Part shown: one piece after another, positions 1,283 to 28,809 of the stretch | Numbering within the stretch: the stretch's first letter is position 1 | Layout of the letters: every line of letters starts with the position of its first letter | Assembly: GCA_034439735.1 (NCBI GenBank) | Contig: JAWXAX010000043.1 | Span: 1-34,520 of the forward strand | Reading direction: 5' to 3' | Origin: Rhodothermales bacterium | Lineage (GTDB): Bacteria; Bacteroidota; Rhodothermia; Rhodothermales; JAHQVL01 | DNA length: 34,520 nt | Position numbers and translations under genes: made by a program | Notes under the pieces: model-generated | Database searches by the model: none | The model's input: the letters and a program-made list of their open reading frames with translations, nothing else | What the model was told of the DNA's origin: nothing

Positions 1283-3448
1283 ATGCGCATCGCTCTACAA
1301 ATCCTTCCGTGGCTCATTCTTTCCGGTGCAACAATGCTGGCCGGATGTTCGGGATCAACCGATCCCTATGCCAACTGGAGCATGTACGAGGGCGACGCCG
1401 GCGCGGCGCATTACTCTTCGCTGACGCAGATCGATCGAACGAACGTAAAAGACCTCGAGATCGCCTGGACCTACCCCGCCGGATCGACCAGCCCCGCCGG
1501 CTTCAGCCCTCTCGTCGTCGACCGCACGATGTATGTCGTGGCCGACAGCGGCGCCCTCGTCGCGCTGGACGCCGGCACGGGCGAGCAACTGTGGGTCCAT
1601 GGCTTCCCGGGAGCCGGCCGGGGTGCTGGGGGCCGGGGCCTGTTGTACTGGGAAAGTGACGATCGGTCCGACCGCCGGCTTTTTGTCCCCCGCGGCCAGA
1701 ACCTCTTCGCCATCGACGCCTCCACCGGCGAGGTGATCTCGTCGTTTGGAGCAGACGGCGCTGTAGATGTGCGGGAGGGGATTCAACGCGATCCCGAAAA
1801 GATCCGAGCCGCCCCCTCGTCTCCGGGTATTGTCTTTGAGAACCTGGTGATCCTGGGCTCCGGCCCCGGCGAAGGGTACGGCTCAGGGCCGGGCGACATC
1901 CGGGCCTGGGATACCCGAACGGGCGAACTCGCCTGGGTCTTCCACACCATCCCCCACCCCGGTGAATACGGCTACGACAGCTGGGAGGACCCCGAGGTCT
2001 GGAAAACAGCCGGCGGCGCCAACGTCTGGGGCGGCATGAGCGTCGATGTCGAACGCAGCATCCTCTACCTGCCTCTGGGATCGGCGACGTACGACTTTTA
2101 CGGCGCGGACCGGCTGGGCGCCAACCTGTTCGCCAATTCGCTGGTGGCGGTAGATGCCCGCACGGGCGAGCGGATCTGGCACTACCAGACCGTCCATCAC
2201 GACCTGTGGGATTTGGACCTGGCGGCCGCGCCGGTGCTCATGACGGTGCAGCATGAGGGCGAGGAATTGGACATCGTTGTCGCCGCCGGCAAGACGGGGT
2301 ATCTGTACGTGTTTGATCGGGTAACCGGCGAGCCGCTGTGGCCGATCGAGGAGGTGCCGGTCCCCGCCTCGGACATGCCCGGCGAGGAGGCTTGGCCCAC
2401 CCAGCCGATTCCCACCTGGCCCGAGCCGTTCAGCGTGCTTTCGTTCACCGTAGACGATATCAACCCGTACATCCCTCAGAAGGAGCAGGACAGCCTCCGA
2501 CAATACGTGGCCAGCATGAACAACAAGGGGGTTTTCACGCCCCCGAGCACCACGCCCACGATGCAGATGCCGGGGAACGGCGGAGGCGCCAACTGGGGCA
2601 CCACGGCGGCCGACCCGGTCAATGCGATCTTCTATGTGCTCAATAGAAACTTCCCGACCGTCCTCACCCTCGAACGTGACATACCCGGCGTACCGGGAGC
2701 GGACGCCTTCCCGCCGGAACGCGGGGCGTTTGTCTACCGCCAGAACTGCCAGCTGTGCCATATGGAGAATCGGGAGGGCCAGCCGCCGCTCATTCCATCT
2801 ATGGTTGGTGTGATGGACCGGCTCAAACCCACGGAATTCATCCAGCAGGTGCGTCAGGGCAAGGGCACGATGCCGGCGTTCCCCGACCTGTCCGATCAGG
2901 AGATTTCCCACCTGATTTCGTATCTCTCGTTCCCAGAATTTGCGCCACCACCACCGCCACCAACGACGACCCCGGCTACCGGCGTGGAAGAGGGCCCCGT
3001 ACGTTACAAGACGGGTTACGGTTACTTCCTGGCCAGCATCGGCTACGCCATCAAACCGCCCTGGGCGACGATCACGGCGTACGACATGCATACGGGGGCG
3101 AAGCAGTGGGAGCGCCCGGTGGGTGAAGTGGATAGCCTGGCGGCCCGTGGTATCACGGACACCGGTTCGGTCGGCCTTCGCGGCGGCCCGTCCGTCACCG
3201 CCGGCGGGCTCCTCTTCCTGGCGACGGACCGGAAATTCAGGGCCTACGACAAGGACACCGGCGAGGAGGTCTGGACCTACGAATTGCCCGGGCCCGTTCA
3301 GGGAATCCCGGCCATCTATGAGGTCGACGGAAAGCAGTACGTGGCCATTGGCGCGGGGCCGGGCGGGGGCGGCCTCCTCGCGGCGTTGATGGGCGGGTCC
3401 CAGGTGCCGCTACCGCGGAATTACGTGGCGTTTGCGTTGCCGGAATGA
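1283..3448 (+). CDS. PQQ-dependent dehydrogenase lipoprotein with inserted cytochrome c domain (copy 1)
   Basis: A 721-residue quinoprotein alcohol/sugar dehydrogenase homologue. The N-terminus is a lipoprotein signal with lipobox LAGC (Cys22). The remainder is a PQQ-type propeller with repeated W-motifs (DAGTGEQLW, DARTGERIWHY, DKDTGEEVWTY). HHDLWDLDL at 305-313 and the following KTGYLYVFDR resemble the active-site Asp and Lys segments of membrane glucose dehydrogenase-type enzymes. A haem c site CQLCH is at 489-493, with likely axial Met530 in GTMPAFP; this domain is inserted before the last two blades and not appended at the end. Electrons probably pass from PQQ to the haem and on to periplasmic cytochromes. 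It is the only copy on the plus strand and is more diverged from the three minus-strand copies than they are from one another. The substrate cannot be read from sequence. Confidence 0.9.
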   Translation: MRIALQILPWLILSGATMLAGCSGSTDPYANWSMYEGDAGAAHYSSLTQIDRTNVKDLEIAWTYPAGSTSPAGFSPLVVDRTMYVVADSGALVALDAGTGEQLWVHGFPGAGRGAGGRGLLYWESDDRSDRRLFVPRGQNLFAIDASTGEVISSFGADGAVDVREGIQRDPEKIRAAPSSPGIVFENLVILGSGPGEGYGSGPGDIRAWDTRTGELAWVFHTIPHPGEYGYDSWEDPEVWKTAGGANVWGGMSVDVERSILYLPLGSATYDFYGADRLGANLFANSLVAVDARTGERIWHYQTVHHDLWDLDLAAAPVLMTVQHEGEELDIVVAAGKTGYLYVFDRVTGEPLWPIEEVPVPASDMPGEEAWPTQPIPTWPEPFSVLSFTVDDINPYIPQKEQDSLRQYVASMNNKGVFTPPSTTPTMQMPGNGGGANWGTTAADPVNAIFYVLNRNFPTVLTLERDIPGVPGADAFPPERGAFVYRQNCQLCHMENREGQPPLIPSMVGVMDRLKPTEFIQQVRQGKGTMPAFPDLSDQEISHLISYLSFPEFAPPPPPPTTTPATGVEEGPVRYKTGYGYFLASIGYAIKPPWATITAYDMHTGAKQWERPVGEVDSLAARGITDTGSVGLRGGPSVTAGGLLFLATDRKFRAYDKDTGEEVWTYELPGPVQGIPAIYEVDGKQYVAIGAGPGGGGLLAALMGGSQVPLPRNYVAFALPE

Positions 3449-3525: not shown

Positions 3526-5055
3526 TCACACCATCCCCTTCAGATGATCCGACAGCCGGAGCGTCATCGCCAGCAGCGTCAGTGTGGGGTTGGCGGCGCC
3601 GGCGGTGGGGAAAACGGCCGAGCCGGCGACGTGCAGGTTGGATAGGCCGTGAACGGTGCAGTTCACGTCGACCACCCCTTGCTTGGGGTCGGGATCCATG
3701 CGGGTGGTGCCCATGTGGTGCCAGCCGGCGCCGAGGTTGGCCGGCCACATCGGCTCGTCTTTGAGGAGCCAGTCGCTGAGCTGGACGCGGCCGATGCCGG
3801 CCTTGCCGACTTCGGCGGCGAAGGTCTCGTGCAGCTGGCGGATCGAGCGTTTCTCGAGTTCACCGATTCGCCAGTCCAGCTTCACGCGCGGCATCCCGAG
3901 GGCGTCCCGCTGGTCGCTGAGCATGATCCGGGAGTCGGGATTGGGCGCCTGTTCCATGCGGACCTGCATCACATACTCGGTGCGCGGCGCCTCCTGGGTC
4001 GGAGCGCCGGCCTGGTTTTGCACCCGCGCGAGCCGTTCCTGCCGATCGCGGACGTTCTGGACAGCATCCGCCGAAAATCCGGTGACGCCGGCGGCCGCGT
4101 TCTGGGCGGCCTGCGCCCGTAGCGCCGAGGTGCCGTTGAGAATCCGGAGCTCCCGCTGTTTTGCCGCCGTGATGGCGACTTCCGCGAAGTGTCTCGTGAC
4201 ACCGAACTGGGTAGTGTAGAGCTTCATCGGGAGCGGCCGCGTAAGGATCATGCGCGCCGCGATGAGTTCCAGATGCTCCATGAAGTACCGGCCGACGACG
4301 TCCGCGTCGTTGCCGAGGCCTTTCGGGGCCTGCGTGTTCGCGGCCAGGAGCAGCCGCGCATTCTGGATGGCGCCCCCGGCGAGGACGAAGTGGCGGGCAC
4401 GCACGGTGTGCGCGTTGCCGTCGTGCGAACGGATTTCAACGTGTTCGACCCGCGAGACCGCCTCGTTGGTCCGGATGTCGCCGACGTTGGCGTAGGTGAG
4501 CAGGTGGATGTTCTCCGACTGCACGATCGCGTCGCGGTACACGTTGCCGAACCGGGTAGGCGGGCTCAGTTGCCACATCTTCGCCCAGACGGACGACTTG
4601 TCGAGGGGCAGTTCGACGAGTTCGGGGTCCTCGGCCTGATAGACCGCGGGATCGAACGTGTCCCTACCAACTTCCACATAGGGACAGGCGCGCCTGTAAA
4701 ACGGCTCGAGGTCGGCCCGGGAGATAGGCCATCCGCTGTTCGGCACCCAGTCGCGCTTCTCGAAATCCTGCGGGTCGTAGTCGGACGACCAGCCGCCCCA
4801 GTGGCCGGTCGTCCCACCGAAATAGTGCAGGCGCGAGGATTGGAGCGGGAAATAGGGCTGACCGACACTTTCGCCGGTATAGAGATCCTGCATGGCGTAC
4901 TCCACATCGAAGCCGCCGCCTTCGAGCAGGATGACGCGCCGGCCAGCGTTCTGCCACTCGAGGGCCATGCTGATGCCGGCCGCGCCGGCGCCGATGATGC
5001 AGAGATCGCCTTCGATGATGCTGCCGTTTTCGAGTGTGCGTGCGTCGGTGTGCAT
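3526..5055 (-). CDS. GMC family FAD-dependent oxidoreductase
   Basis: A 509-residue flavoprotein of the glucose-methanol-choline family, which oxidises hydroxyl groups of sugars and alcohols. The FAD-binding GAGAAG motif is at 22-27, followed by the acidic strand end VILLEGG. GGTTGHWGGW resembles the conserved segment of gluconate 2-dehydrogenase and pyranose-type flavoproteins. The C-terminal GMC domain has GWHHMGTTRMD (His446/His447) and GAANPTLTLLA (Asn489), the usual catalytic His/Asn pair. It is the last gene of a seven-gene operon, 23 bp after a DUF1080/FG-GAP gene. The N-terminus has no signal peptide or twin-arginine motif, which is odd because every other gene in the operon encodes an exported protein. 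It may act in the cytoplasm on imported product, or be exported with a partner. The exact substrate is unknown. Confidence 0.9.
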   Translation of the reverse strand: MHTDARTLENGSIIEGDLCIIGAGAAGISMALEWQNAGRRVILLEGGGFDVEYAMQDLYTGESVGQPYFPLQSSRLHYFGGTTGHWGGWSSDYDPQDFEKRDWVPNSGWPISRADLEPFYRRACPYVEVGRDTFDPAVYQAEDPELVELPLDKSSVWAKMWQLSPPTRFGNVYRDAIVQSENIHLLTYANVGDIRTNEAVSRVEHVEIRSHDGNAHTVRARHFVLAGGAIQNARLLLAANTQAPKGLGNDADVVGRYFMEHLELIAARMILTRPLPMKLYTTQFGVTRHFAEVAITAAKQRELRILNGTSALRAQAAQNAAAGVTGFSADAVQNVRDRQERLARVQNQAGAPTQEAPRTEYVMQVRMEQAPNPDSRIMLSDQRDALGMPRVKLDWRIGELEKRSIRQLHETFAAEVGKAGIGRVQLSDWLLKDEPMWPANLGAGWHHMGTTRMDPDPKQGVVDVNCTVHGLSNLHVAGSAVFPTAGAANPTLTLLAMTLRLSDHLKGMV

Positions 5056-5078: not shown

Positions 5079-6959
5079 TTACGGCTTGCCCCATAAGATA
5101 AAGGTCCCACGGGTACCCGAAGTCAGGATGTCGATCGCACCGTCTCCGTTGATATCCTTCGCCTTGGCTTCCGAGCCGACGCCGGACTTGTTATGGACGA
5201 GATGGGGCACAAACACGACCCCGCCCGGGGCATCGGGCCGGCGGACGGTTTCGTACCAGTAGGTCACGGCCTCGCCGTCGGGGTCCGGATCGACCAACGT
5301 GTCCAGGTGGGCCCAGTGGCGTTTGCCGGTGACGAAGTCCATGATCCCGTCGCGGTTGATGTCCGCCAGGATGGCGCCGGCGTGGAGTTCGGAGAACGTG
5401 ACGTCGCCGACGTTTTTCGTCGAGAAGTCTCCCATGATGTGATGTTTCTCGAACGAGATGGCGCCGGCGGCGTTGCGCTGCTGCTCGTACCAGGCCAGCC
5501 CCCAGCCGTGGGCGCTGAGGCTGGTGATGACATCGTTCAGGCCGTCGCCGTTGAAGTCATACACCGAGATGGCGCCACCGCCGCCGATGAACGAAGCCGA
5601 CTCGCCGAAGAGCACCTCGTGGTGTTTCCAGTTGCCGCTGCCGGGGTTGGTCGCCGGCTGCTCCCACCATCCGGTGGCCTGGAGGACGTCCGTCCGGCCA
5701 TCGCCGTTGACATCGCCGGCGCCGACGCCGTGGATGCTGCAGCCGTTGAACTCAAACAGGGTGGCGGACACTTTGGTGAGGCGCCAGGGCCCGGTCGGGT
5801 TCGCGGCGTCGGGCTCGCCGTAGGAGACGCGGCTTTCGCGATCCACATACACCATTTCGTCTTCGCCGTCGCTATCGATATCGGCCTGGATGGTGATCTC
5901 GCTGCAGACATCGGGGACGACCAGGACGCGGTCCCAGCGCCGGCTTTCGCCCTGCGGGTTGATGAACATGGCGAGTTGGCGCATTTCGGACACGATCAAG
6001 TCGGTCCAGCCGTCGCCCGTCCAGTCCTTCGCAAAGGCGAGCATGTTCGGCGTGTATTCGACGCCGGGGTTAAACGTACGGGAAGGGAAATACTCGCGCC
6101 GGCGACGGAAGTCGGGGCCGAGGTAGTAGTACGGGCCCGCCACGAGGTCCTTCACCCCGTCCCCATCGATGTCGCCCGCATCGACCCCCCAGGAGTAATG
6201 AAACTCCGCGACATGTTGCCTGGAAAAGCGGTCGGAGACGTGCTCGGGCGCGACCGTGTAATGCATCCAATCCTTGACCGCGACATCCTCGAAGCGGACG
6301 CTGCCGGAACCCACGTACAGGGCGATGGGACCATAGGCTTGCGGCATGGTCTCACGTGGGGCGAAGATGCCGATGGCGGCGGACTCCGGCGTCTGCGGCA
6401 CGGCCGTGCCGCCGGCGATGGACCGGCGTACACCATTCAAATGGTTCTGGATCTCATTGGCACGCACAAAGATCTCGATGGTATTCCAGGCGTCGCGCGT
6501 GAGGGGGCTCGGGGCGTTCCGCACGCCGTCATCCTCCCGGGGCTCGCGGGCCAGTTCGCGGGTCAGGATGGCGCCGTTCACATCGAGCGTGACGCGGAAA
6601 GGGGCGACTTCGTCCTCGCGGAGCGAGATCAGGATGCCGCTCATCCCACCGTCCGTTTTTTCCAGGCGAAGGAGCACGCCGGCATCACAGGCGCCGGTGC
6701 ACTGGAAGCGAGAGAACACGGAGACGTCTTCGTAGGAGCGGTCGAATACCAGCAGGCCGCCGGCGCTGCCGCGGGCGGTGCCGGTGATGGTGCCGTTTTG
6801 CGCGCTCCAGTCGGCCGTGCCCAGCGGCTGCCATGCCGTTAGCTGCGAACCCTCGAAGAGGTAGTCCGGAATAAAGTCCGGCGCGGGGCTCTGCTGCGCA
6901 AGAGCCGGCGTGGCAACGAGCAGCGCGGCGGCGAAGAGCCAGGTCTGACGATGAAACAT
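5079..6959 (-). CDS. Exported DUF1080-like domain plus FG-GAP/VCBS seven-blade propeller protein (copy 1)
   Basis: The 626-residue product starts with a Sec signal peptide ending ALA-QQS. Residues about 27-230 resemble the 3-keto-disaccharide hydrolase/lyase domain DUF1080 (concanavalin-like fold): FEGSQLTAWQ, NGTITGT, a Cys pair in CTGACDAGVLLR, WNTIEI, LNGVRR, and a closing IALYVGSGSVRFEDVAVKD. Residues about 240-626 hold seven calcium-binding FG-GAP loops (DIDGDGVKD, DWTGDGWTD, DIDSDGEDE, DVNGDGRTD, DFNGDGLND, DINRDGIMD, DINGDGAID), enough for a complete integrin-type propeller. A weak GAGG lies upstream of the ATG. It sits between a quinoprotein gene and the GMC gene. The N-terminal domain may bind or cleave oxidised sugars, with the propeller as a binding scaffold; this is inference from family resemblance, since no catalytic residue was identified. 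Confidence 0.85.
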   Translation of the reverse strand: MFHRQTWLFAAALLVATPALAQQSPAPDFIPDYLFEGSQLTAWQPLGTADWSAQNGTITGTARGSAGGLLVFDRSYEDVSVFSRFQCTGACDAGVLLRLEKTDGGMSGILISLREDEVAPFRVTLDVNGAILTRELAREPREDDGVRNAPSPLTRDAWNTIEIFVRANEIQNHLNGVRRSIAGGTAVPQTPESAAIGIFAPRETMPQAYGPIALYVGSGSVRFEDVAVKDWMHYTVAPEHVSDRFSRQHVAEFHYSWGVDAGDIDGDGVKDLVAGPYYYLGPDFRRRREYFPSRTFNPGVEYTPNMLAFAKDWTGDGWTDLIVSEMRQLAMFINPQGESRRWDRVLVVPDVCSEITIQADIDSDGEDEMVYVDRESRVSYGEPDAANPTGPWRLTKVSATLFEFNGCSIHGVGAGDVNGDGRTDVLQATGWWEQPATNPGSGNWKHHEVLFGESASFIGGGGAISVYDFNGDGLNDVITSLSAHGWGLAWYEQQRNAAGAISFEKHHIMGDFSTKNVGDVTFSELHAGAILADINRDGIMDFVTGKRHWAHLDTLVDPDPDGEAVTYWYETVRRPDAPGGVVFVPHLVHNKSGVGSEAKAKDINGDGAIDILTSGTRGTFILWGKP

Positions 6960-7022
6960 GAGAGGCCTCGTTTGGGGTTGGTGCTGTTTGTGAATCGGAT
7001 CGGTGGAAATAGCTGCCCCCGA

Positions 7023-9182
7023 TCAGGGCAACGCAAAGGCGATATAACTGGGGTTTCGGACGGTCCCATCGGCGGGCGGAGCGCTCCGCCCCGCCGTGGC
7101 CACCACGGCTACGTATTGCCGGCCCTCCCACGCATAGATGGAAGGAATGCCTTCTCCGAGGCCCGGCAGCGGGTGGGACCACAGCTGGGCGCCGGTCACC
7201 CGGTCGAAGGCGTAGAGCCTGTCGGATGCCGACTGGAAGATCAGGTCACCGGCGGTCACAGACGGCCCTCCCCGCACGCGCATACCGGCGCCGGTATCGG
7301 TGATGCCCTCCTGGGCCAACCGCTTCACTTCGCCGACCGGCGTTACCCATTTGATCTCGCCCGTATTCATGTCGTAGGCGGTGAGGCGCAGCCACGGGGG
7401 TTTGATAGCCTGTACGCCCTCGGAATCGACGATGTGGATCCACCCGCTCTGGTACCGTTCGGGCTCTTTCGCGCCCGGCGCGGCGTTGGCGCCGGCGGTG
7501 AGCGCCAGCGCCGGGTTGGCCAGGTAAGCCACCAGCGCCGACATCTCCATTTCCGTCAGATGTGGCATGGGCGGCATCTGGTTACGCCCGCCGCGGATTA
7601 CCGCGTTCAGGTCCACGTGCGAGAGCCGATCGGTAACGCCGACCAGCGAGGCGATCCCCCCGGCGGGTTGTCCTTCCAGATTCGGCTGATGGCAGATCTG
7701 GCAATTCGCCTGATAGACGGCCTGGCCCCGATCGACGATGGTGCCTCCGGTGCCAACCACGCCGGCCGTGATCGGCTCCAGCTTGAGGACGGAAGGCAGG
7801 TTATCTCCCAGCACATAAAACGTCCCATCGCGCGGGTCGGCGGCGGTGGATCCCCAGTTGGCGCCGCCCCGGTTGCCGGGGATCTGGAGCGTGGCCTGCG
7901 TGCTGGGCGGGGTGTACAGTCCGGTGACCACCATCGAGCGGAGGAGGGTCTGGAGCGAGTCGCGGTCGGCCGGCGAGAGGTGGGGGTTCAGGTCGTTCTC
8001 GGTATCCCAGGCCAACGGGACAAACGGGGGCGGTTTCGTGGGGAACGGCTGCGTCGGCCAGGCCTGCTCGCCGGGCATCACGGAAGGGGGTACCGGGCGT
8101 TCCTCGATGGGCCAGAGCGGCTCGCCGGTCGCGCGATTGAAGGCGAAGACCATCCCGGTTTTGGTAGCCTGGGCAACGATGTCGAGCGGCTTGCCGTCGC
8201 GCTCGATCGTCAGCAGAACGGGCGTGGCGGCGAGGTCGTAGTCCCACAGGTCGTGATGGGTCGTCTGGAAGTGCCAGATCCGCTCCCCGGTGCGGGCGTT
8301 CAGCGCCACGAGCGAGTTGGCGAACAGGTTTTCGCCGTGACGGTCGACGCCGTAGAAGTCGTAGTTGGCGGATCCCAGCGGGATGTAGACGATGCCGCGT
8401 TCGGTATCCACGCTTAATCCGCCCCACGCGTTGGCGCCCCCGCCTTTGTCCGAGCGCCCTGCCGGCCAGGTGTCATAGCCATGTTCGCCGGGTTTGGGCA
8501 GGGTGTGGAAGATCCAGGCCTGCCGGCCGGTGCGGACGTCGAACGCGCGGATGTGTCCGGGGCCGGCCATGTACCCCTCACCCGGCGACGAACCCAGGAT
8601 GACGAGGTCTTCGAACACGGTCCCAGGCGACGAGGAGGTCGCGCGGGCCATCAATTCAGGCAGAATACCGAGGCCGTGCCGCAGATCGACGACGCCCTTT
8701 TCGCCAAACGAGGGCACAAAGTCCCCGGTGAGGGCATTGAGCGCGACCAACTGGTAGCTGCCCCGGTAAAAAAGCAGGCGACGATCCGACCGGTCTGTAT
8801 TCTCCCAGTACATAAACCCGCGCCCGCCCATGCGCGCGCCGGGCGAGCCTGGGTGGAACCAGATTGGCTGGCCCGTGCCGGCGTGCAGCGCCGCCACCGA
8901 GCCGCTGTCTCCGACGACGTACATCAGCGAGTCGACGACGATGGGATTGTGGATGGCGGCGTCGGGCGTCTCGTACGTCCAGGCGATCGTGAGTTGATCG
9001 ACATTGGATCGATCGATCTGATCAAGCGCCGAGAAGCTGGATGCCCCCGGCTCTCCCTCGAAGCGCGACCACCGGTAGAAACGTTCATCGAGCGCTCGTT
9101 CCGGGGCGCAGGAAGCCATCCACAGCGTTATGAATATCAGGGTAAGCCTGTACGACATCATCAGGAGGCGATCCGCGATCAT
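7023..9182 (-). CDS. PQQ-dependent dehydrogenase lipoprotein with inserted cytochrome c domain (copy 2)
   Basis: This 719-residue product is closely related to copies 3 and 4. The lipobox Cys is residue 25 (LWMASC) if the ATG at 9182 is used; ATGs at 9161 and 9158 give a shorter, more typical lipoprotein signal and are real alternatives, and none has a good Shine-Dalgarno sequence. Active-site-like HHDLWDYDLAATPVL and KTGMVFAFNRATGEPLWPIEERPVP are intact. The haem c motif CQICH is at 494-498 in a segment reading YQANCQICH, with a probable axial Met in NQMPPMP. It begins 29 bp after the stop of copy 3, so the pair looks like a tandem duplication. Predicted role: periplasmic oxidation of a sugar or alcohol with transfer of electrons to its own haem. 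Confidence 0.9.
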   Translation of the reverse strand: MIADRLLMMSYRLTLIFITLWMASCAPERALDERFYRWSRFEGEPGASSFSALDQIDRSNVDQLTIAWTYETPDAAIHNPIVVDSLMYVVGDSGSVAALHAGTGQPIWFHPGSPGARMGGRGFMYWENTDRSDRRLLFYRGSYQLVALNALTGDFVPSFGEKGVVDLRHGLGILPELMARATSSSPGTVFEDLVILGSSPGEGYMAGPGHIRAFDVRTGRQAWIFHTLPKPGEHGYDTWPAGRSDKGGGANAWGGLSVDTERGIVYIPLGSANYDFYGVDRHGENLFANSLVALNARTGERIWHFQTTHHDLWDYDLAATPVLLTIERDGKPLDIVAQATKTGMVFAFNRATGEPLWPIEERPVPPSVMPGEQAWPTQPFPTKPPPFVPLAWDTENDLNPHLSPADRDSLQTLLRSMVVTGLYTPPSTQATLQIPGNRGGANWGSTAADPRDGTFYVLGDNLPSVLKLEPITAGVVGTGGTIVDRGQAVYQANCQICHQPNLEGQPAGGIASLVGVTDRLSHVDLNAVIRGGRNQMPPMPHLTEMEMSALVAYLANPALALTAGANAAPGAKEPERYQSGWIHIVDSEGVQAIKPPWLRLTAYDMNTGEIKWVTPVGEVKRLAQEGITDTGAGMRVRGGPSVTAGDLIFQSASDRLYAFDRVTGAQLWSHPLPGLGEGIPSIYAWEGRQYVAVVATAGRSAPPADGTVRNPSYIAFALP

Positions 9183-9211
9183 AAGGTAAGTCTTGTTATC
9201 AAAGGGGTCGA

Positions 9212-11377
9212 TCAGGGGGATTCAGGGAGGGCGTACGCGATGTACTTCGGCACCCGTGGCTGTGCCGGCGCCGGCTGCCCGAAGCCGCCGGCCGTGGCGA
9301 TGGCCATCACGTATTGGCGTCCGTTCACCTCGTACACGGTGGGGATGCCCTCGCCGATGCCCGAGAGCGGCGTGCGCCACAACAGCGCGCCGGTGTCGCT
9401 ATCGTGCGCCCAGAACGTCTCGCCGGCCATCTGGAAGATCAGCCCGCCGGCCGTAATGGCCGGACCGCCGCGCAGCCAGTTGACCGCTCCCGTGCCCGTG
9501 ACGCCCTGCTCGACCAGATGCGGCACTTCGCCCAGCGGGGCCTGCCACTTGATCTCGCCCGTGTTCATATCGTAGGCCGTGAATCGGAACCATGGCGGCT
9601 TGATCACCGGCACCCCTTTGCTGTCGAGGACATGGTTCCGGCCGCTCTGGTACCGCTGCGGGCCTTCCGGCCGGCCCGTGGTCAGGTCCTGCCCGGTTGT
9701 GAGGGCCAGATCGGGATTGGCGAGATAAGCCTGAAGCGCGTCGAATTCCAGGTCGGACAGCCGCGGGAACGCCGGCATGAGGCCCCGGCCGCCTTTGATC
9801 GACAGCTTGAGTGCATCGTGGCTGAGCCGATCAGTCACGCCGACAAGCGACGGGATCCCGCTGGTGGGCGCGCCCTGCAGGTTCTCGCGGTGGCAGATCT
9901 GGCAGTTTACCTGGTAGATGGCCTGGCCCTGATCGAACATGGACTCGCCCGTGCCGACGGCGCCGGCGGTGATCGGCTCGAGCTTCAGCACGGACGGCAT
10001 GTTGTAGCTGAGAACGAAGAACGTCCCGTCGCGCGGGTCGCCGGCGGTCGAGGCGAAGTTGGCCCCGCCGCGGTTGCCTGGCACTTGCAGGGTGGGCCGC
10101 GTGTCCGGCGGGGTGAACACTCCTTTGTAGACCATGGAGCGCACAAACGCCTCGAGCGAATCCCGGTCGTGGGCGTCCATGTGCGGGTTGAAGTCGTCGA
10201 TGGATAACGTCAGCGGGATAAACGGCGCCGGTTTCGTGGGGAAAGGCTGCGTGGGCCAGGCCTGCTCGCCCGGCATGTCCGACGCCGGCACCGGGCGCTC
10301 CTCGATGGGCCAGAGGGGCTCCCCGGTCTCGCGGTTGAAGGCAAACACCTGCCCGGTCTTTGTCGCCTGCGCGACGATGTCGAGCGGCCGGCCGTCGCGC
10401 TGGATGGTCAGCAGGACGGGCGTGGCGGTGAGGTCGTAGTCCCACAAGTCATGATGCACGGTCTGGAAGTGCCAGATCCGCTCTCCCGTGCGGGCGTTGA
10501 GCGCTACGAGGCTGTTCGCGAAGAGGTTCTGGCCATGGCGATCCACGCCGTAGAAGTCGTAGTTGGCGGAGCCGAGCGGGATGTAGGCGATCCCGCGTTC
10601 GGTGTCGACGCTCATCCCGCCCCAGGCATTGGCGCCGCCGGCTTCGTCCGACCGCCCCGGCGGCCAGGTATCGTACCCGAACTGACCCGGCTTCGGGAGG
10701 GTGTGGAAGATCCAGACCTGCCGGCCCGTCACGACGTCGAACGCGCGGATGTGCCCCGGGCCGGCGTTATACCCTTCGCCCGGCGACGACCCGAGGATGA
10801 TCAGGTTCTCGAAGATGACGCCCGGACTGGGCGACGACGCGCGCTCCACGCGCAGCGGGTCGATGTCGAGCCCCGGGCGCAGATCCACCATCCCACTGTC
10901 ACCGAACGTGGTGATCAGCTCCCCCGTGAGGGCGTCGATCGCCGACAGGGTGTTGGTGTTGGCGTACATCAGGATCCTGCGATCCGTGCGGTCTTCGTTC
11001 TCCCAATACGTCATCCCGTGTTCGAAGTACCCCCGCGGCAGACCCATCAACGACACGGCATTCGGACTACGATGCTCCCAGAGGATCCGCCCCGTGCCGG
11101 CGTGTAATGCTACGACGGCGTTCGAATCCCCAAAGACGTACATCGTCGAATCGACCACGATCGGGTTGATGGAGGCGGCGCCCTCGGTCTCATAGGTCCA
11201 GGCGACCTCTAGCTGCTGCACGTTGGTCCGATTGATCTGGTCTAGCGCCGAAAAATGGGTCGCGCCAGGCTCTGCTTCATACCGCGCCCAGCGATAAAAG
11301 CGCTCGTCGAGCTCGTTGGACGATCCGGAGCAGGCGGATACGAAGATGAAGAGGGCGAAGAGAGGGCTGCGGGGCAT
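9212..11377 (-). CDS. PQQ-dependent dehydrogenase lipoprotein with inserted cytochrome c domain (copy 3)
   Basis: A 721-residue quinoprotein whose start codon directly abuts the stop codon of the preceding gene (stop at 11378-11380, ATG at 11375-11377), suggesting translational coupling. It has a very short lipoprotein signal with lipobox VSAC (Cys16). W-motifs, HHDLWDYDLTATPVL and KTGQVFAFNRETGEPLWPIEERPVP are intact. The haem c site CQICH is at 492-496, with a likely axial Met in GLMPAFP. The segment after the haem domain returns to propeller sequence (ITAYDMNTGEIKW-like, then DSDTGALLW), so the cytochrome is an insertion. It is most similar to copies 2 and 4. Divergence between copies suggests different substrates, but no pocket residue can be assigned from sequence alone. 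Confidence 0.92.
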   Translation of the reverse strand: MPRSPLFALFIFVSACSGSSNELDERFYRWARYEAEPGATHFSALDQINRTNVQQLEVAWTYETEGAASINPIVVDSTMYVFGDSNAVVALHAGTGRILWEHRSPNAVSLMGLPRGYFEHGMTYWENEDRTDRRILMYANTNTLSAIDALTGELITTFGDSGMVDLRPGLDIDPLRVERASSPSPGVIFENLIILGSSPGEGYNAGPGHIRAFDVVTGRQVWIFHTLPKPGQFGYDTWPPGRSDEAGGANAWGGMSVDTERGIAYIPLGSANYDFYGVDRHGQNLFANSLVALNARTGERIWHFQTVHHDLWDYDLTATPVLLTIQRDGRPLDIVAQATKTGQVFAFNRETGEPLWPIEERPVPASDMPGEQAWPTQPFPTKPAPFIPLTLSIDDFNPHMDAHDRDSLEAFVRSMVYKGVFTPPDTRPTLQVPGNRGGANFASTAGDPRDGTFFVLSYNMPSVLKLEPITAGAVGTGESMFDQGQAIYQVNCQICHRENLQGAPTSGIPSLVGVTDRLSHDALKLSIKGGRGLMPAFPRLSDLEFDALQAYLANPDLALTTGQDLTTGRPEGPQRYQSGRNHVLDSKGVPVIKPPWFRFTAYDMNTGEIKWQAPLGEVPHLVEQGVTGTGAVNWLRGGPAITAGGLIFQMAGETFWAHDSDTGALLWRTPLSGIGEGIPTVYEVNGRQYVMAIATAGGFGQPAPAQPRVPKYIAYALPESP

Positions 11378-13384
11378 TTATTTACTGATAAACACATTTG
11401 TCCCCCGACGGGCGGAGGTCAGGATGTCCGGGAGGCCGTCGTTGTTGAGGTCGGCCGAGATCATGTCAGTCCCGACGCCCGAGTTGTTGTTGACCAGTTC
11501 GGGGACGAAGCGGGCCTGGCCGTTTGCGCGGACGAGTCGGAACCAGTAGACGACGGGAGCGCCGAAGGCATCCGGATCCGTCGGGTTTTCGCCGAAGTGC
11601 GCCCACCAGCGTTTGCCGGTCACGATATCCTGCAGGCCGTCGCCATCGATGTCGGCCAGCGTGAGGGCGTGTAGGGCGGCGAAGACGACGCCGTTGTTGG
11701 GGTTGGCGAAGTCGTCCATGATCATGTGCCGTTCGAAGGAGATCGTGCCGGCGGCGTCGCGCTTCTGCTCGAACCACGCCAGGCCGAAGCCGTGACCTTC
11801 GAGGCTGGTGACGACATCGTTCAGCCCGTCGCCGTTGACGTCGTAGGCGAACGCGCGGGCGCCGCCACCGCCGCCCTGCTGAGAGCCCCAGCGACCAAAC
11901 GTCTCGGGGTGGTACGTCCACGGCTGCCCGTTCGGGGTAGCCGGCTGCTGCCACCAGCCATACGCCTGGATGAGATCCTTGCGCCCATCCCCATCCACAT
12001 CGCCGGTACCCAGGCCGTGGGCGTACATCGCCCCCCAGGGCCCTTTTTCGGTGACCGCGTGGAAAGTCCACATCTGCGTCGGGTCCGGCCCGGGCTCGGC
12101 GTAGCCGATGAAGCCGCCGTCGGTATAGACGTACTCGAGCTGGCCGTCGCCGTCGATGTCGTCCGCGAAGGCGACCTCGTTATCCACCGACGGGATCACC
12201 ATGTGTTTGGCCCAGCGGTGCACAGCGGCGTCTTTGCCGGGGTTCACGAAGAGGAACCCGGGCCGGCCCGGTTCGCCCGTATGCAGGACGTCCGGGTAGC
12301 CGTCGCCGGTAAAGTCGCCGGCGGAGGCGAGGAGCGGATCGGGGTACGAGGTGGGGGAATAGGTTCGTGGGACATATAGCTCATGACGCGTCGTGAATTC
12401 GGGGCCGATGAAGATATTCGGGCCGGCGATGACGTCCATATTCCCATCCAGATTCACGTCGGCGGCCGTGACGGCTTCGCTGTAGAACATGGCTTCCAGC
12501 TGCTGTTTCCGGAAGCGGGGGGATGTCACTTCGATCGGGTGGGCGTTTTTGACGTCCATCGGCTTGACGCCCACGCCGCGGAAGCGGATCTCGGTGCCGG
12601 CGGGGCCGGCGATGAAGAGGCCGACCTGCCCGTGCGCCGTGCCCGCGGCGGCGGTGACGCCGGCCTCGACCGTGCCGGCGCCATTCAACAACCCGCGCAG
12701 CGACGTGCCCACGGAGTGGATTTCGACGCGGTTCCAGCTGTTATCGAGCTTCAACGGTTCGATGCCCTGTTTGCCGCCGAGTTGCCCGGGGTACAGCAAG
12801 CCAAGACCAGGGTACTCGGCCCGGAAGTCGACCATGCTCATCGGGTACGGACTCGGGTTCGGCTCGACGACCGTGCGCTCGACCAATTTACCGGTCGCAT
12901 CCAGCACGATGTGATGACCGCCTACCTTGCCCTCGCCAAACGAATACAAGATGCCCGTCGTCCGCTCCCCTTCACTCTCCGCGTGGATCACGATCCCCGG
13001 CTCACAACCCGGCCCGCAGCGAAACGACGCCATCGCCGCCAGGTCCTGGCTGGTGATGTCCAGCAGCAGCAACGCGCTCCCGCCCTGCCCTACGACGCCC
13101 ACGTACTCCCCGGCCTGTACCCGCCAGCGTCCGCTCTGAGGCCGCACACCGTCCATGCTCGTGGCATCGAAGGTTCGGGCCGGCAAAAACGTCTGCACAT
13201 ACGCCGCGTCGAGGGTCGGCGCGAGGGCGGCGCTGGGCGATGGCGGCTCGGCCGCCTGCTGACCCAGCAGCTGGGCGAGAGGGATCGTTTCCTCCTCTTT
13301 TTTAGTGTCCTGGGCAAGTGCCAGAGCGGGTGTCAGGAGCGCGCAGAGCGCGAAAAGGACCCAACGGGGTAGGCATGATTTCAT
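11378..13384 (-). CDS. Exported DUF1080-like domain plus FG-GAP/VCBS propeller protein (copy 2, diverged)
   Basis: A 668-residue protein with signal peptide ending ALALA-QDT and an extra charged linker (KKEEETIPLAQLLGQ, residues about 28-50) absent from copies 1 and 3. The N-terminal lectin-like region keeps the DUF1080 pattern with a Cys pair (CGPGCEPGIVIH), a WNRVEIHSVG segment and LNGAGT. Seven FG-GAP calcium loops follow: DVNLDGNMD, DFTGDGYPD, DIDGDGQLE, DVDGDGRKD, DVNGDGLND, DIDGDGLQD and DLNNDGLPD. The blade sequence GWWQQPA matches GWWEQPA of the sister proteins. It lies 39 bp after copy 3 and directly abuts the quinoprotein gene downstream. Being the most diverged of the three, it may bind a different ligand. 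Confidence 0.85.
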   Translation of the reverse strand: MKSCLPRWVLFALCALLTPALALAQDTKKEEETIPLAQLLGQQAAEPPSPSAALAPTLDAAYVQTFLPARTFDATSMDGVRPQSGRWRVQAGEYVGVVGQGGSALLLLDITSQDLAAMASFRCGPGCEPGIVIHAESEGERTTGILYSFGEGKVGGHHIVLDATGKLVERTVVEPNPSPYPMSMVDFRAEYPGLGLLYPGQLGGKQGIEPLKLDNSWNRVEIHSVGTSLRGLLNGAGTVEAGVTAAAGTAHGQVGLFIAGPAGTEIRFRGVGVKPMDVKNAHPIEVTSPRFRKQQLEAMFYSEAVTAADVNLDGNMDVIAGPNIFIGPEFTTRHELYVPRTYSPTSYPDPLLASAGDFTGDGYPDVLHTGEPGRPGFLFVNPGKDAAVHRWAKHMVIPSVDNEVAFADDIDGDGQLEYVYTDGGFIGYAEPGPDPTQMWTFHAVTEKGPWGAMYAHGLGTGDVDGDGRKDLIQAYGWWQQPATPNGQPWTYHPETFGRWGSQQGGGGGARAFAYDVNGDGLNDVVTSLEGHGFGLAWFEQKRDAAGTISFERHMIMDDFANPNNGVVFAALHALTLADIDGDGLQDIVTGKRWWAHFGENPTDPDAFGAPVVYWFRLVRANGQARFVPELVNNNSGVGTDMISADLNNDGLPDILTSARRGTNVFISK

Positions 13385-13423
13385 GACGGACGCTCGTAAG
13401 AACCGTAAAGCAAAAACCGACGA

Positions 13424-15367
13424 TCACAACGTGCCCCAGAACACAAACGTGCCCCGGCTGCCGGACGTAACGATGTCCAGGGAGCCATCGCCGTCGATGT
13501 CGATGACTTTGACCTCGGAGCCGACGCCGGACTTATTGTGGATGAGGCGCGGGACAAATTCCACCCCGCCGGCGGCGCCGGGGCTCCGCACGGTCTGGTA
13601 CCAATAGATGACTCCTTCCCCATCGGGATCGGGGTCCGAGAAAGCATCGAGGTGGGACCAGTGGCGTTTGCCGGTTACGAAGTCCAACACGCCGTCGTGG
13701 TTGATGTCGGCCAGGGTGGCGCCGGAGTGGACCTGCGAGAACGTGACCCCGCCGGCGTTTTTCGTCGAAAAATCCCCCATGATGAGGTGCTCGACGAACG
13801 TGATCTTGCCGGCGGCGTCGCGCTGCTGCTCGTACCAGGCGAGGCCCCACCCGTGGGCGGAGAGGCTGGTGACGACGTCGTTGAGGCCGTCGCCGTTGAA
13901 GTCGTACACGGCGATCTCGGCGCCGCCCGGATGCTGGGGCGAGCGGGTCAGCCGGCCGAAATGGGCTTCGTGGTAGATCCACATCCCCGTATCCGCGCCG
14001 GCGGCGGGCTGCTCCCACCATCCGCGCGCCTGGAGGATGTCGACCCGGCCGTCGCCGTTGACGTCGCCGGTGCCCACGCCGTGCGTATTGCAGCCAGCGA
14101 CGACCGGCTGGGAGATCTTATGGACCTTCCACGCGCCGTTCAGGTTTGCGGGGTCAGGTTCGGCGTAGGCCACGCGACCGTCGTTGGCTACATAGACGAT
14201 CTCGGGCTTTCCGTCAGCGTCGACATCGGCGCGGACCGCCGTTTCGCTGCACACGTCTGGCAGCGCCTCAACCCGATCCCAGAAGCGTTTCTCGCCTTGC
14301 GGGTTCAGGTAGAGCACGAGCGGCCGGCGTTCGGTGACGAGGGCATCGATCCATCCGTCCTCGTTCCAGTCGTTCGCAAACGTCAACATGTCGTTGATGT
14401 ACTCGAGTCCCGGGTTGAATACCCGCGCCTCGTAATATTCGCGGCGGACGCCGAAGTCAGGGCCGAGGTAATAAAACGGACCCGAGATGAGGTCCTGCAC
14501 GCCGTCGCGGTTGACGTCCGCCACGTCGGCGCCCCAGCCGTAATAAAACTCATTCACCTGCTGAACCCGGAAGTCGCTCGAGGTCTGTTCAGGCTCAACC
14601 GTCAGCGTGTGCAGATCTTTCACCGACACGTCATCGAACTCGACCTTCCCGGAGCCGACGTACAGGGCGATCGGGCCGTAACCATGGACGTACGTCACAG
14701 GGATGATGACGGCTCCCCCGAACTCGGGCGCTTCCGCCTGTGGGAAATCCTGCGCCGTACCACCTCGGATGGCGTTGCGGACGTTGTTGAGATGGTTGAA
14801 GATGGCATTGCCGTCGACAAAGACCTCAAGCGTATTCCAGGTATCCGCTTTCGCCAGCACGGGCGCGGACATCGCCGCGGTGGCTGCATCGAGCACCGGG
14901 CTGGAAGACATCGCCGGTTGGTTGCCGCCGCCTCCGCCGCCCTGCGGGCCCCGGGCGGACGTTTTAGCGGTGATCTTCCCATTCGCGTCCAGCGTCACCC
15001 GGTAGGGGGCGACGGTTTCGCCCTCGATTGCCACAAAAATCCCCTTCATGCCCGTCGGCGTTTCCTCGGCGCGCAGCAGGATGCCGGCGTCGCACGGGCC
15101 GGCGCAGCGGAAACGGGTGAAGACGGCGGCATTTTGATACGATTCATCCAGCATCAGCCACCCGCCGTCTCGCCCGGCCGTCCCGGTGATCGTCCCAAAC
15201 TCGGCCCGCCACTGGGCCTGGCCCACCGGCTGCCAGCCGGCAAGGTCGGAGCCATAAAAGGTATAATCCGGGATAAAATCCGGCGCCGGGCTCTGTTGGG
15301 CCCGAGCCGGGGCCGCCAGTACCAGGCTCAGTGCGGCGAGCATGCCGGCGGTTTTCAGAAGCACCAT
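13424..15367 (-). CDS. Exported DUF1080-like domain plus FG-GAP/VCBS seven-blade propeller protein (copy 3)
   Basis: A 647-residue close paralogue of the protein at 5079-6959; both mature proteins begin QQSPAPDFIPDY. The signal peptide ends PARA. The DUF1080-like domain spans about 27-255 (FYGSDLAGWQP, CAGPCDAGILLR, WNTLEVFVDGN, closing IALYVGSGKVEFDDVSVKD) and contains a Gly-rich insertion (GPQGGGGGGNQ) absent from copy 1. Seven FG-GAP loops follow, from DVNRDGVQD to DIDGDGSLD. AGAGG lies 8-12 bases before the ATG. It is the second gene of the operon, 94 bp after the first quinoprotein gene. The strong similarity to copy 1 suggests that a quinoprotein plus FG-GAP module was duplicated as a unit. 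Confidence 0.87.
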   Translation of the reverse strand: MVLLKTAGMLAALSLVLAAPARAQQSPAPDFIPDYTFYGSDLAGWQPVGQAQWRAEFGTITGTAGRDGGWLMLDESYQNAAVFTRFRCAGPCDAGILLRAEETPTGMKGIFVAIEGETVAPYRVTLDANGKITAKTSARGPQGGGGGGNQPAMSSSPVLDAATAAMSAPVLAKADTWNTLEVFVDGNAIFNHLNNVRNAIRGGTAQDFPQAEAPEFGGAVIIPVTYVHGYGPIALYVGSGKVEFDDVSVKDLHTLTVEPEQTSSDFRVQQVNEFYYGWGADVADVNRDGVQDLISGPFYYLGPDFGVRREYYEARVFNPGLEYINDMLTFANDWNEDGWIDALVTERRPLVLYLNPQGEKRFWDRVEALPDVCSETAVRADVDADGKPEIVYVANDGRVAYAEPDPANLNGAWKVHKISQPVVAGCNTHGVGTGDVNGDGRVDILQARGWWEQPAAGADTGMWIYHEAHFGRLTRSPQHPGGAEIAVYDFNGDGLNDVVTSLSAHGWGLAWYEQQRDAAGKITFVEHLIMGDFSTKNAGGVTFSQVHSGATLADINHDGVLDFVTGKRHWSHLDAFSDPDPDGEGVIYWYQTVRSPGAAGGVEFVPRLIHNKSGVGSEVKVIDIDGDGSLDIVTSGSRGTFVFWGTL

Positions 15368-15461: not shown

Positions 15462-17633
15462 TTACCGGGGGAGGGCAAAAGCAACGTAGCTGGGGCTACG
15501 CGGCGTGGTCAGCCGGGGAGCGCCCTGCCCGCCCTGCGTCGCCGATATCACGACAAACTGCCGGCCGCCTACCTGGTAGACGGCCGGAATGCCTTCACCC
15601 ACTCCGGGCAAAGACGTCGACCAGAGCACGGCCCCGGTCTCGCGATCATGGGCCCACAACTTTTCGCCGGCGGACACAAAGATCAGCTCGCCGGCCGTGA
15701 TGGTTGGCCCTCCGCGGACCCAGACTGTAGCGCCGGTGTTCAGGATGCCTTTTTCGACCAGGTGTGGCACTTCGCCGACAGGCACCTGCCAATCAATGTC
15801 GCCCGTGTTCATGTCGTACGCGGTGAGGCGGAACCACGGGGGCTGGATCACGGGTATGCCCTTGCTATCGAGAATGTGGTTCCATCCGCTCTGATACCGT
15901 GGCGGCGCCTCGGGCCGGCCCACGAGGTTCTGGGTAGAGGCGAGCTCCTGGCCGGTGGTGAGCGCGAGTTCCGGGTTGGCCAGGTACGCGAGGAGCGCGT
16001 CGTACTGGCCGTCGGTCATCTGCGGGAACGCCGGCATCAGGCCCTGCCCTACCAGCAGCTGCTGCTTCATGTCGTCGTGGCTCAGCCGCTCCGTCACCCC
16101 AACGAGCGACGGTATGCCGCCGAGGGGTTGCCCCTGCCGGTTGGCGCCGTGGCAGAGCTGGCAGTTCGCCAGATAAAACGCCTGCCCCTGATCGAAGGGG
16201 GATCCGCCCGTACCGACCGCGCCCGGGTAGATGGGCTCGAGCTTGAGGATGGACGGCATGTTGTAGCTGAGGACAAAAAACGTCCCGTCCCGAGGGTCGC
16301 CGGCGGTCGATCCCCAGTTGGCCCCACCTCGGTTGCCGGGCGACTGGAGCGTGGGCCGCGTATCCGGAGGTGTGAACATCCCTTTGTACACCATCGAGCG
16401 AACAAGCGCTTCCAGGGAGTCGCGGTCGCGGGTGTCCATGTGGGGGTTGAAGTCCTCGATGGCCAGGGACTGGGGGATAAATGGCGCCGGCTTCGTAGGG
16501 AACGGCTGCGTGGGCCAGGGCTGCTCGCCCGGCATGTCGGACCCCGGCACAGGCCGCTCTTCAATCGGCCAGAGCGGCTCGCCCGTCTCCCGGTTGAAGG
16601 CGAACACAAAGCCCGTCTTCGTCGCCAGCGACACGATGTCGAGCGGCCGACCCTCCCGCTCGATGGTCAGCAGGACCGGCGTGGCGGTGAGGTCGTAGTC
16701 CCACAGGTCGTGGTGGACCGTCTGGAAGTGCCATTTCCGCGCGCCGGTGCGGGCGTCGAGGGCGACGAGCGAGTTGGCAAACAGGTTTTCGCCGTGACGA
16801 TCGACGCCGTAGAAGTCGTAGTTGGCGGATCCGAGCGGGACGTACACGATGCCCCGGTGTTCATCCAGGCTTATCCCGCCCCACGCGTTGGCGCCTCCGG
16901 CTTCATCGGAGCGGCCCGGGGGCCAGGTATCGTAGCCGAACTGTCCCGGCTTGGGGAGGGTATGGAAGATCCACGCCTGCTGGCCGGTGCGGATGTCGAA
17001 GCCGCGGATGTGCCCCGGGCCGGCGGCGTAGCCCTCACCTGGCGCGGAGCCCATGATGTAGAGGTCTTCGAAGACGACGCCCGGAACCGGCGCCGTGGCG
17101 CGGTGCATGCGTAGCGGGTCGATATCCAGCCCGTTCCTCAGATCCACCTTGCCCCCGTCACCAAAGGAAGGGATGGATTCTCCCGTATCTGCATCGATCG
17201 CGACCAGGAAGTAACTGCCTCGAAAGAACAAGATGCGTCTCTCGGACCGGTCGGCGCTTTCCCAGTAGGCGATTCCGTGTTCAACGCGGCCAGTAGGCAG
17301 TGTGCTGGTATGGACCCACAACTCAGCGCCAGTGCCGGCGTGCAGGGCTACGACGGCTTTTTCGTCACCAAAGACGTACATCGTCGAGTCGATCACGATT
17401 GGGTTAAACGCTTCGACGCCTGAAGACGTGTACCGCCACACCTCCTGCAATTGCCCAACGTTTGTTCGATCGATCTGATCTAGCGAAGAGAAATGTGTGG
17501 CGCCCGGCTCGGCTTCGTAGCGCGTCCAACGGCTGTATTTCTCATCCAACCGGGTCCCTTGCGGGTTACATGCGGACAGCAACACCGCGGCAAGTACCAG
17601 AACGCAGAGGGGAAAGCGTACGGAGTGAAACAT
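15462..17633 (-). CDS. PQQ-dependent dehydrogenase lipoprotein with inserted cytochrome c domain (copy 4, first gene of operon)
   Basis: The open frame extends to 18236, but the ATG at 17633 is chosen because it starts a canonical lipoprotein signal (MFHSVRF, hydrophobic stretch, LLSAC with Cys22) and the upstream part overlaps the AraC gene on the same strand. The resulting 723-residue length matches its paralogues. HHDLWDYDLTATPVL and KTGFVFAFNRETGEPLWPIEERPVP form the expected active-site segments. The haem c motif CQLCH is at 491-495, with axial Met likely in GLMPAFPQM. It is the first gene of the seven-gene operon. A conserved element at 17694-17762 lies 60 bp upstream, and an AraC regulator gene is just beyond that, so expression is probably inducible. 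Confidence 0.92.
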   Translation of the reverse strand: MFHSVRFPLCVLVLAAVLLSACNPQGTRLDEKYSRWTRYEAEPGATHFSSLDQIDRTNVGQLQEVWRYTSSGVEAFNPIVIDSTMYVFGDEKAVVALHAGTGAELWVHTSTLPTGRVEHGIAYWESADRSERRILFFRGSYFLVAIDADTGESIPSFGDGGKVDLRNGLDIDPLRMHRATAPVPGVVFEDLYIMGSAPGEGYAAGPGHIRGFDIRTGQQAWIFHTLPKPGQFGYDTWPPGRSDEAGGANAWGGISLDEHRGIVYVPLGSANYDFYGVDRHGENLFANSLVALDARTGARKWHFQTVHHDLWDYDLTATPVLLTIEREGRPLDIVSLATKTGFVFAFNRETGEPLWPIEERPVPGSDMPGEQPWPTQPFPTKPAPFIPQSLAIEDFNPHMDTRDRDSLEALVRSMVYKGMFTPPDTRPTLQSPGNRGGANWGSTAGDPRDGTFFVLSYNMPSILKLEPIYPGAVGTGGSPFDQGQAFYLANCQLCHGANRQGQPLGGIPSLVGVTERLSHDDMKQQLLVGQGLMPAFPQMTDGQYDALLAYLANPELALTTGQELASTQNLVGRPEAPPRYQSGWNHILDSKGIPVIQPPWFRLTAYDMNTGDIDWQVPVGEVPHLVEKGILNTGATVWVRGGPTITAGELIFVSAGEKLWAHDRETGAVLWSTSLPGVGEGIPAVYQVGGRQFVVISATQGGQGAPRLTTPRSPSYVAFALPR

Positions 17634-25376: not shown

Positions 25377-25427
25377 GAGCACAAACCTCAAGCTTCAATC
25401 GGTGAGTAAAAAAAGGCAGCATGAAAG

Positions 25428-25455
25428 GGCAAAAGAGAAAAGGCAAAAGAGAAAA
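25428..25455. repeat. Direct repeat of a 14-mer, GGCAAAAGAGAAAA x 2
   Basis: Two perfect adjacent copies of a purine-rich 14-mer. A pyrimidine-rich stretch of roughly complementary sequence follows at about 25499-25560, so the gap between the Tm-1-like gene and the cyclase gene (25377-25561) can fold into a long imperfect hairpin. The gap contains no gene and probably separates two transcription units. Confidence 0.85.
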
Positions 25456-25536
25456 CAATGACAGAATTAACCTGGCTGTGGCGGATCACTCCTCTGCTAC
25501 TCTTTTACTTTTTGCCTTCTCCTGTTTTTCCTTTTT

Positions 25537-25564
25537 CCTTTTACCTTTTACCTTTTACCTTTTA
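25537..25564. repeat. Heptamer tandem array, CCTTTTA x 4, covering a stop codon
   Basis: Four perfect copies of CCTTTTA (TAAAAGG on the minus strand), preceded by imperfect pyrimidine-rich units. The last copy supplies the TAA stop codon of the Tm-1-like gene (25562-25564). Confidence 0.95.
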
Positions 25565-26767: not shown

Positions 26768-26799
26768 GCCGTGCGTGTTATGAGTAGGCCGGGGGAGTG

Positions 26800-27762: not shown

Positions 27763-27767
27763 GAGGG

Positions 27768-28748: not shown

Positions 28749-28809
28749 AGGTATCGAGTCGGGTTGGTGGAGGGAGAGGTTGAAAGATCAAACGAACAGG
28801 GCCAGTTGG

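Follow-up and report, generated by a model that had tools for sequence, protein, structure and literature searches.

Possible keto-sugar eliminase function of the propeller in three DUF1080-like/FG-GAP fusion proteins encoded among quinoprotein dehydrogenases of a Rhodothermales bacterium

Which half of a two-domain protein carries out the chemistry and which half holds the substrate is the question raised by a contig of a Rhodothermales bacterium (NCBI GenBank assembly GCA_034439735.1, contig JAWXAX010000043.1, positions 1 to 34,520 of the forward strand; this whole stretch of 34,520 nucleotides is called the window). Three open reading frames (ORFs) on its minus strand encode proteins, here A, B, and C, in which an N-terminal domain resembling DUF1080 (PF06439) is joined to a seven-bladed FG-GAP propeller. 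An earlier note on this DNA had proposed surface or periplasmic proteins whose DUF1080-like domain acts on a polymer while the propeller holds it. The present analysis suggests that this division of labour is probably reversed. As a tentative reading, held at somewhat less than even confidence, A, B, and C would be secreted proteins of a periplasmic 'oxidise, then eliminate' sugar system, with the propeller as a metal-dependent keto-sugar eliminase or dehydratase.

5079..6959, minus strand: protein A, 626 amino acids; signal peptide, DUF1080/CBM66-like domain, and AUDH-like seven-blade FG-GAP propeller
11378..13384, minus strand: protein B, 668 amino acids; architecture as A, most diverged copy
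13424..15367, minus strand: protein C, 647 amino acids; architecture as A, 58% identity to A

All three ORFs were recovered with the ends given before, and motif and Pfam scans bore out the shared architecture that had been described, with a signal peptide, a DUF1080/PF06439-like domain containing a CxxxC pair, seven DxxxDG blades, and one GWW[EQ]QPA motif per protein (residue 430 in A, 476 in B, 449 in C). The family FG-GAP_3 (PF13517) was matched with E-values of 1.6e-22 in A, 2.1e-21 in B, and 3.2e-26 in C. The blade loops lie at residues 263, 312, 360, 416, 468, 533, and 602 in A, at 309, 357, 409, 462, 515, 578, and 645 in B, and at 284, 333, 381, 435, 489, 554, and 623 in C; one DPDPDG outside the blade loops is present in A (557) and in C (578). 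Motifs of the form D-x-[DNT]-x-DG were counted 8, 7, and 8 times in A, B, and C, compared with a mean of 0.06–0.07 and a maximum of 3 in 2000 shuffles of each protein, by which chance motifs were rejected. In VCBS propellers, the DxDxDG motif forms loop AB (PMC8023676). The copies are truly diverged, with 58% identity for A–C and 37% for both A–B and B–C, and Sec-type signal peptides, recognised by eye in all three, support the proposed periplasmic or surface location.

The possible catalytic role of the propeller was approached through its structural relatives. The fungal aldos-2-ulose dehydratase/isomerase (AUDH) of Phanerochaete chrysosporium (4A7K, 4A7Y, 4A7Z) is, like A, B, and C, built on a seven-bladed FG-GAP/VCBS propeller; this propeller holds a catalytic zinc, the substrate is a keto-sugar, and the chemistry is an elimination on 1,5-anhydrofructose or glucosone. 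AUDH had been named as a lead ahead of the structure search, and VIA-align of the model of A (predicted local distance difference test, pLDDT, 76.8) against 993 chains placed it in the top three positions (4a7y, 4a7k, 4a7z; Z 26.1–26.2, 334–335 residues, root mean square deviation 3.7–3.8). LGI1 (Z 22.9) came next, then integrin alpha-V (22.5). When the Protein Data Bank (PDB) was searched with a profile built from 29 propellers of the family, AUDH was matched with an E-value of 4.4e-6; the aligned stretch, 262 of the 361 positions, was longer than any other single one in the 60 profile matches listed. Single-sequence searches did not reach AUDH. A, B, and C are not AUDH, as its cupins are absent; the proposal is that their propeller may work as that of AUDH does. 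Unlike AUDH, they are bacterial and carry an N-terminal DUF1080-like domain, and their identity to it is 16%. AUDH is mentioned in PMC8023676, PMC4795551, and PMC4425051, the first of which also assigns the PL11 rhamnogalacturonan lyases YesW and YesX to the same VCBS propeller supercluster. These lyases gave weak profile matches (E 0.0015 and 0.02) of about 30 residues at one loop.

A set of invariant polar residues sets this propeller family apart. In a first alignment of 19 rows, E354, H410, H484, H526, K546, R547, and H551 (numbering of A) were identical throughout, and in 28 more diverse rows E354, H410, H484, H526, and H551 were each retained in 28/28 and R547 in 27/28. These rows come from alignment A4 (29 rows, near-duplicates from the same genera left out), from which L073 (E 1.4e-24), an FG-GAP outlier, had been removed ahead of counting; when it is included, E354, H410, H484, and H551 stand at 28/29 and H526 at 29/29. 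L073 has kept the calcium-loop Asp, but carries D, S, E, H, and E at the five sites and M in place of R547. According to the secondary structure of the model, each invariant residue either opens strand A, closely precedes it, or falls between strands B and C; each occurs in one blade only, and the blades differ. This would place the Glu and the four His on the DA/BC face of the propeller, with the calcium loops on the other one. Because each is confined to a single blade, one asymmetric site is suggested rather than repeated lectin sites. Conserved, non-repeated polar residues on one face and an enzyme as best VIA-align match make a propeller that only holds the polymer less likely.

5079..6236, minus strand: propeller of A, residues 242–626; top VIA-align rows AUDH, Z 26.1–26.2
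5898..5900, minus strand: E354 of A, invariant in 28/28 of the propeller family
5730..5732, minus strand: H410 of A, invariant in 28/28
5508..5510, minus strand: H484 of A, invariant in 28/28
5382..5384, minus strand: H526 of A, invariant in 28/28
5307..5324, minus strand: K546-R547...H551 of A (GKRxxAH motif), R547 in 27/28 and H551 in 28/28

The motif HGx[GA]x[GDV]D was found in none of the 12 other FG-GAP ORFs of this genome. Among 244 genomes of the class, 14 contained relatives of the propeller (query A, E<=1e-30, with no more than five candidates scored in each genome). A sample of 395 genomes from the phylum yielded relatives in 21 (profile A2, E<=1e-20). Many of these relatives are solo secreted proteins of about 400 amino acids. 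Within the same genome, a fourth fusion copy lies on contig C39, and contig C27 encodes a propeller without the N-terminal domain.

For the N-terminal domain, PF06439 (curated cut-off 26.8 bits) was matched above the cut-off by A (E 2.5e-15, 57.4 bits) and C (E 1e-14, 55.4 bits), and just below it by B (E 1.2e-5, 25.9 bits; 29.1 bits in the genome search). With the domain of A modelled alone (pLDDT 83.8), VIA-align gave CBM66 as best match (Z 19.6 over 154 residues), followed by BT3469 (4jqt) as best DUF1080 entry (Z 18.9), the 3-keto-glycoside eliminase/hydratase 9fbe (16.8), the hydratase 8v31 (15.7), and legume lectins (14.5–15.0), which confirmed a DUF1080/concanavalin A-like fold. The earlier note had named an unrelated laminin-G or concanavalin family as the outcome that would speak against it, and this did not occur, as shown by the PF06439 match and the DUF1080 structures among the fold matches. 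DUF1080 entries were thus found as expected from that note, but CBM66 matched equally well or slightly better. The likeness to CBM66 of Bacillus subtilis (4AZZ, 4B1M; 14–15% identity) is one of fold.

6255..6881, minus strand: N-terminal DUF1080-like domain of A, residues 27–235; PF06439 E 2.5e-15, fold search of the domain alone
6687..6701, minus strand: CxxxC pair of A, C87/C91
13004..13018, minus strand: CxxxC pair of B, C123/C127
15092..15106, minus strand: CxxxC pair of C, C88/C92

A comparison of conserved DUF1080 residues, akin to the check that the earlier note had suggested for catalytic ones, weighs against its reading. In a comparison set of 19 ordinary DUF1080 domains, an LQxH motif near the C-terminal end was conserved (Q in 19/19, H in 18/19). 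It is absent from A, B, C, and the C39 copy, where Y or F replaces Q and G or A replaces H; the NSG triplet of ordinary domains is changed to DAG, EPG, or NAG, and most of the scaffold is kept. LQxH is defined here by its conservation and may or may not be catalytic; one figure in PMC9765024 marks three DUF1080 positions, which are unnamed in the accompanying text. The CxxxC pair stands directly ahead of the strand GVLLR in A, GIVIH in B, and GILLR in C and is present in all four fusions, the C39 copy included. Compared with the 3-keto-disaccharide hydrolases/3-keto-2-hydroxy-glucal hydratases of PF06439 (BT2157 3OSD, 8TDA, 8V31, 8RR2/9FBE), A and C match by profile and the fold agrees with Z of about 15–19, whereas LQxH and NSG are replaced and the CxxxC pair and the fused propeller are additional. 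The domain is read here as a disarmed DUF1080 relative that probably binds carbohydrate. The assignment of activity to DUF1080 and of holding to the propeller is therefore less likely, given the absence of LQxH and a structural likeness to CBM66 that equals or slightly exceeds that to DUF1080; the predicted location and the link to keto-sugars stood.

The genes around A, B, and C encode mainly oxidoreductases:

15462..17633, minus strand: pyrroloquinoline quinone (PQQ) dehydrogenase with cytochrome c domain, encoded upstream of C; the start at 17633 is probably that of a lipoprotein
9212..11377, minus strand: PQQ dehydrogenase with cytochrome c domain, abutting B with a gap of 0
7023..9182, minus strand: PQQ dehydrogenase with cytochrome c domain, lipoprotein-type N-terminus by eye
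3526..5055, minus strand: glucose-methanol-choline (GMC) type flavin adenine dinucleotide (FAD) oxidoreductase, 23 bp downstream of A
1283..3448, plus strand: fourth PQQ dehydrogenase with cytochrome c domain, on the opposite strand to A, B, and C

The order on the minus strand is PQQ-C-B-PQQ-PQQ-A-GMC with gaps of 94, 39, 0, 29, 63, and 23 bases; A and B are separated by two PQQ dehydrogenase genes, so the three copies are not consecutive. Lipoprotein-type N-termini were seen by eye in all three PQQ proteins of the minus strand. About nine PQQ dehydrogenase genes are present in the genome, and three of its propellers sit among the four in the window. The GMC protein is a relative of FAD-glucose/fructose dehydrogenase and pyranose oxidase. 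For three of its four close paralogues, a PF06439 match is found no further than 8 kb away (rough chance estimate 6e-4, made after the fact). One such locus, L048 (G000:C302:18000-36000), parallels the window with a GMC paralogue, an out-of-family FG-GAP propeller, a PQQ dehydrogenase, and two DUF1080 domains. At another, L047 (G000:C256), a DUF1080 gene lies no more than 7 kb from a GMC paralogue, as does the gene of a GFO/IDH protein. The best match of this protein is BT_2158, a glycoside 3-dehydrogenase family, at 133 bits, which is under the cut-off of that family.

In other genomes, 13 of 16 propeller loci (11 genomes) have a TIGR02604 gene at a distance of about 5 kb or less, compared with 0.42 expected (Poisson-binomial P about 1e-18); relatedness among the loci lowers the true weight of this count. 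In the first set of 15 loci, 7 are accompanied by oxidoreductase genes of one GFO/IDH family, in three genera. Neighbour lists are incomplete where greedy ORF calling took antisense ORFs (C itself in the window; L050, L052, L104). At one locus (L039, 3553-6555), a DUF7133-type neighbour of the TIGR02604 kind carries an N-terminal plastocyanin/azurin-like copper domain.

On a tree of 30 propellers, the architecture must have changed three times, as well-supported branches require. The type of the window comprises four rows, all from this genome; a second type has an N-terminal DUF1080 domain bearing LQxH (L019, L025); and a third has a C-terminal tandem of DUF1080 domains (six rows). LQxH-bearing domains are found in two of the three types, in L019/L025 and in the tandem pairs L064, L069, L075, and L077. 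Among the tandem-form loci L038, L103, L104, and L105, ThuA-GSDH genes adjoin two of four, one of which also has aldo-keto reductase and GFO/IDH genes. In L064, L069, L075, L077, and L080, secreted proteins of about 880–900 amino acids have an AUDH-like propeller followed by two DUF1080 domains and are candidates for two-step enzymes in one chain.

If the propeller is catalytic, periplasmic quinohaemoproteins, and perhaps also the GMC enzyme, would convert a hydroxyl group on a glycoside or glycan into a ketone. The cluster on the propeller face would bind a metal, zinc by analogy with AUDH, and polarise this ketone, and the propeller would then eliminate water or the glycosidic leaving group. 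Meanwhile, the N-terminal domain, possibly stabilised by a disulphide, might hold the glycan as a carbohydrate-binding module resembling CBM66, and the three diverged copies could serve different linkages or keto positions. The sequence of oxidation, metal-assisted elimination, hydration, and reduction is established for the 3-keto-glycoside beta-eliminases AtOGE and CGE (PMC10628242); these are TIM barrels with Mn2+, not propellers, and the corresponding step would be analogous here. A parallel in gene content is LacABC of Caulobacter lactose use, where, as in the window, a sugar dehydrogenase gene lies beside one for a DUF1080 protein, and oxidation is proposed to precede glycosidic cleavage in the periplasm (PMC9007349). 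There, however, DUF1080 is the proposed hydrolase and the passages on the system describe no propeller, whereas PQQ-cytochrome dehydrogenases dominate the window.

Several findings weigh against this explanation, in which both catalysis and substrate are inferred. Foldseek ranked CRTAC1 first (1.6e-9) and integrins also ahead of AUDH, which came 19th (5.1e-7), and the PDB profile search placed it 10th, after CRTAC1 (6.8e-9), lectin 2, and several integrins. The likeness to AUDH lies at the level of fold and profile, a match of the Glu and His to its zinc site is hypothetical, and their assignment to one face is derived from secondary structure and topology rather than coordinates. AUDH_Cupin (PF18637) was not among the families of A, B, and C at E<=10; it was found in 0/296 genomes, but no control genome gave a signal either, so its absence is not shown. 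A TIGR02604 neighbour is missing at three of the 16 loci and at all five propeller genes of this genome, and the C27 copy and its G002 relative adjoin genes without an evident role in sugar metabolism. Finally, no signal peptide was visible by eye in the GMC protein, and a Gluconate_2-dh3 partner gene was not found in the window.

An alternative that is unlikely, though it deserves serious attention, is that the propeller is a non-catalytic, PVL-like carbohydrate-binding module, its His/Glu cluster being a sugar site or structural metal site, and that A, B, and C capture glycans for the PQQ dehydrogenases. Lectins are among the Foldseek matches (4tqm, 4up4, 2bwm), and the N-terminal domain is itself CBM66-like. 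PVL has repeated inter-blade lectin sites; the invariant residues of the present family occur once each and in one blade only, which may point away from such sites. PVL-type lectins belong to the VCBS propellers, with the DA' loop forming sugar pockets (PMC8023676). An enzyme as best VIA-align match and the recurrent fusion of the propellers to LQxH-bearing DUF1080 domains also argue against pure binding.

The version of the earlier note, in which the DUF1080-like domain has retained lyase or hydratase activity on keto-sugars by means of other residues and the propeller holds the polymer, is considered improbable. It could appeal to the scores of A and C above the PF06439 cut-off, to 9fbe and 8rr2 (3-keto-glycoside eliminase/hydratase) among the fold matches, and to the fact that A and C have kept scaffold residues together with the Arg in the GVLLR strand, but it would have to do without the Q and H of LQxH and with an altered NSG in all four fusions. 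More improbable still are docking scaffolds without chemistry of their own that join PQQ-cytochrome dehydrogenases to each other or to the outer membrane. The interleaving of the genes with those of dehydrogenases and the matches to the interaction proteins CRTAC1, integrins, and ITFG2 (KICSTOR) would suit such a role, whereas a strictly invariant Glu and four His across families would be unusual for an interaction surface.

The keto-sugar eliminase explanation might extend beyond this genome. It is possible, at a confidence well short of even, that the phylum holds an undescribed family of metal-dependent beta-propeller keto-sugar eliminases or dehydratases, a counterpart of the AUDH propeller, which was fused three times to DUF1080 hydratase-fold domains and wired to haem/quinoprotein dehydrogenases. 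Such proteins would allow complete periplasmic oxidise-eliminate(-hydrate) cutting of glycans without a glycoside hydrolase, and the window would show three tuned copies in which the hydratase has turned into a binding domain. Binding or adhesion is the role routinely assigned to FG-GAP propellers in annotation. If the family is catalytic, many secreted 'FG-GAP repeat proteins' near TIGR02604 genes would become candidate keto-sugar eliminases, and TIM barrels and DUF1080 would be joined by another fold for a step of non-hydrolytic glycan breakdown. The claim is testable because the fusion to DUF1080 is repeated: if it is true, both elimination and hydration are expected from a single chain in proteins such as the tandem forms (L064, L075, L077). 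Among the papers searched, none had both DUF1080 and FG-GAP, and there was nothing useful on TIGR02604 with FG-GAP or on a non-hydrolytic pathway.

Other origins and features of the locus were also considered. Phage origin was rejected as A and B, the two proteins scanned, had no PHROG match, and plasmid spread was rejected as tblastn with A gave no match. Structured RNA was rejected in the absence of an Rfam match in the window, as were transcription signals, with promoter and terminator scans not above shuffles.

Further along the window, all on the minus strand, the stretches 21188-24330 and 32493-33191 encode a molybdopterin xanthine-dehydrogenase-type large subunit with a [2Fe-2S] subunit and, further on, a CoxG-like protein. 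Between these stretches, 24657-31412 encodes a cyclase family protein, UPF0261, two AP_endonuc_2 TIM-barrel (sugar isomerase-like) proteins, a transaldolase, and an aldehyde dehydrogenase, a cluster that looks like sugar catabolism. The 3-keto-glycoside eliminase AtOGE is likewise annotated as a sugar phosphate isomerase/epimerase (PMC10628242).

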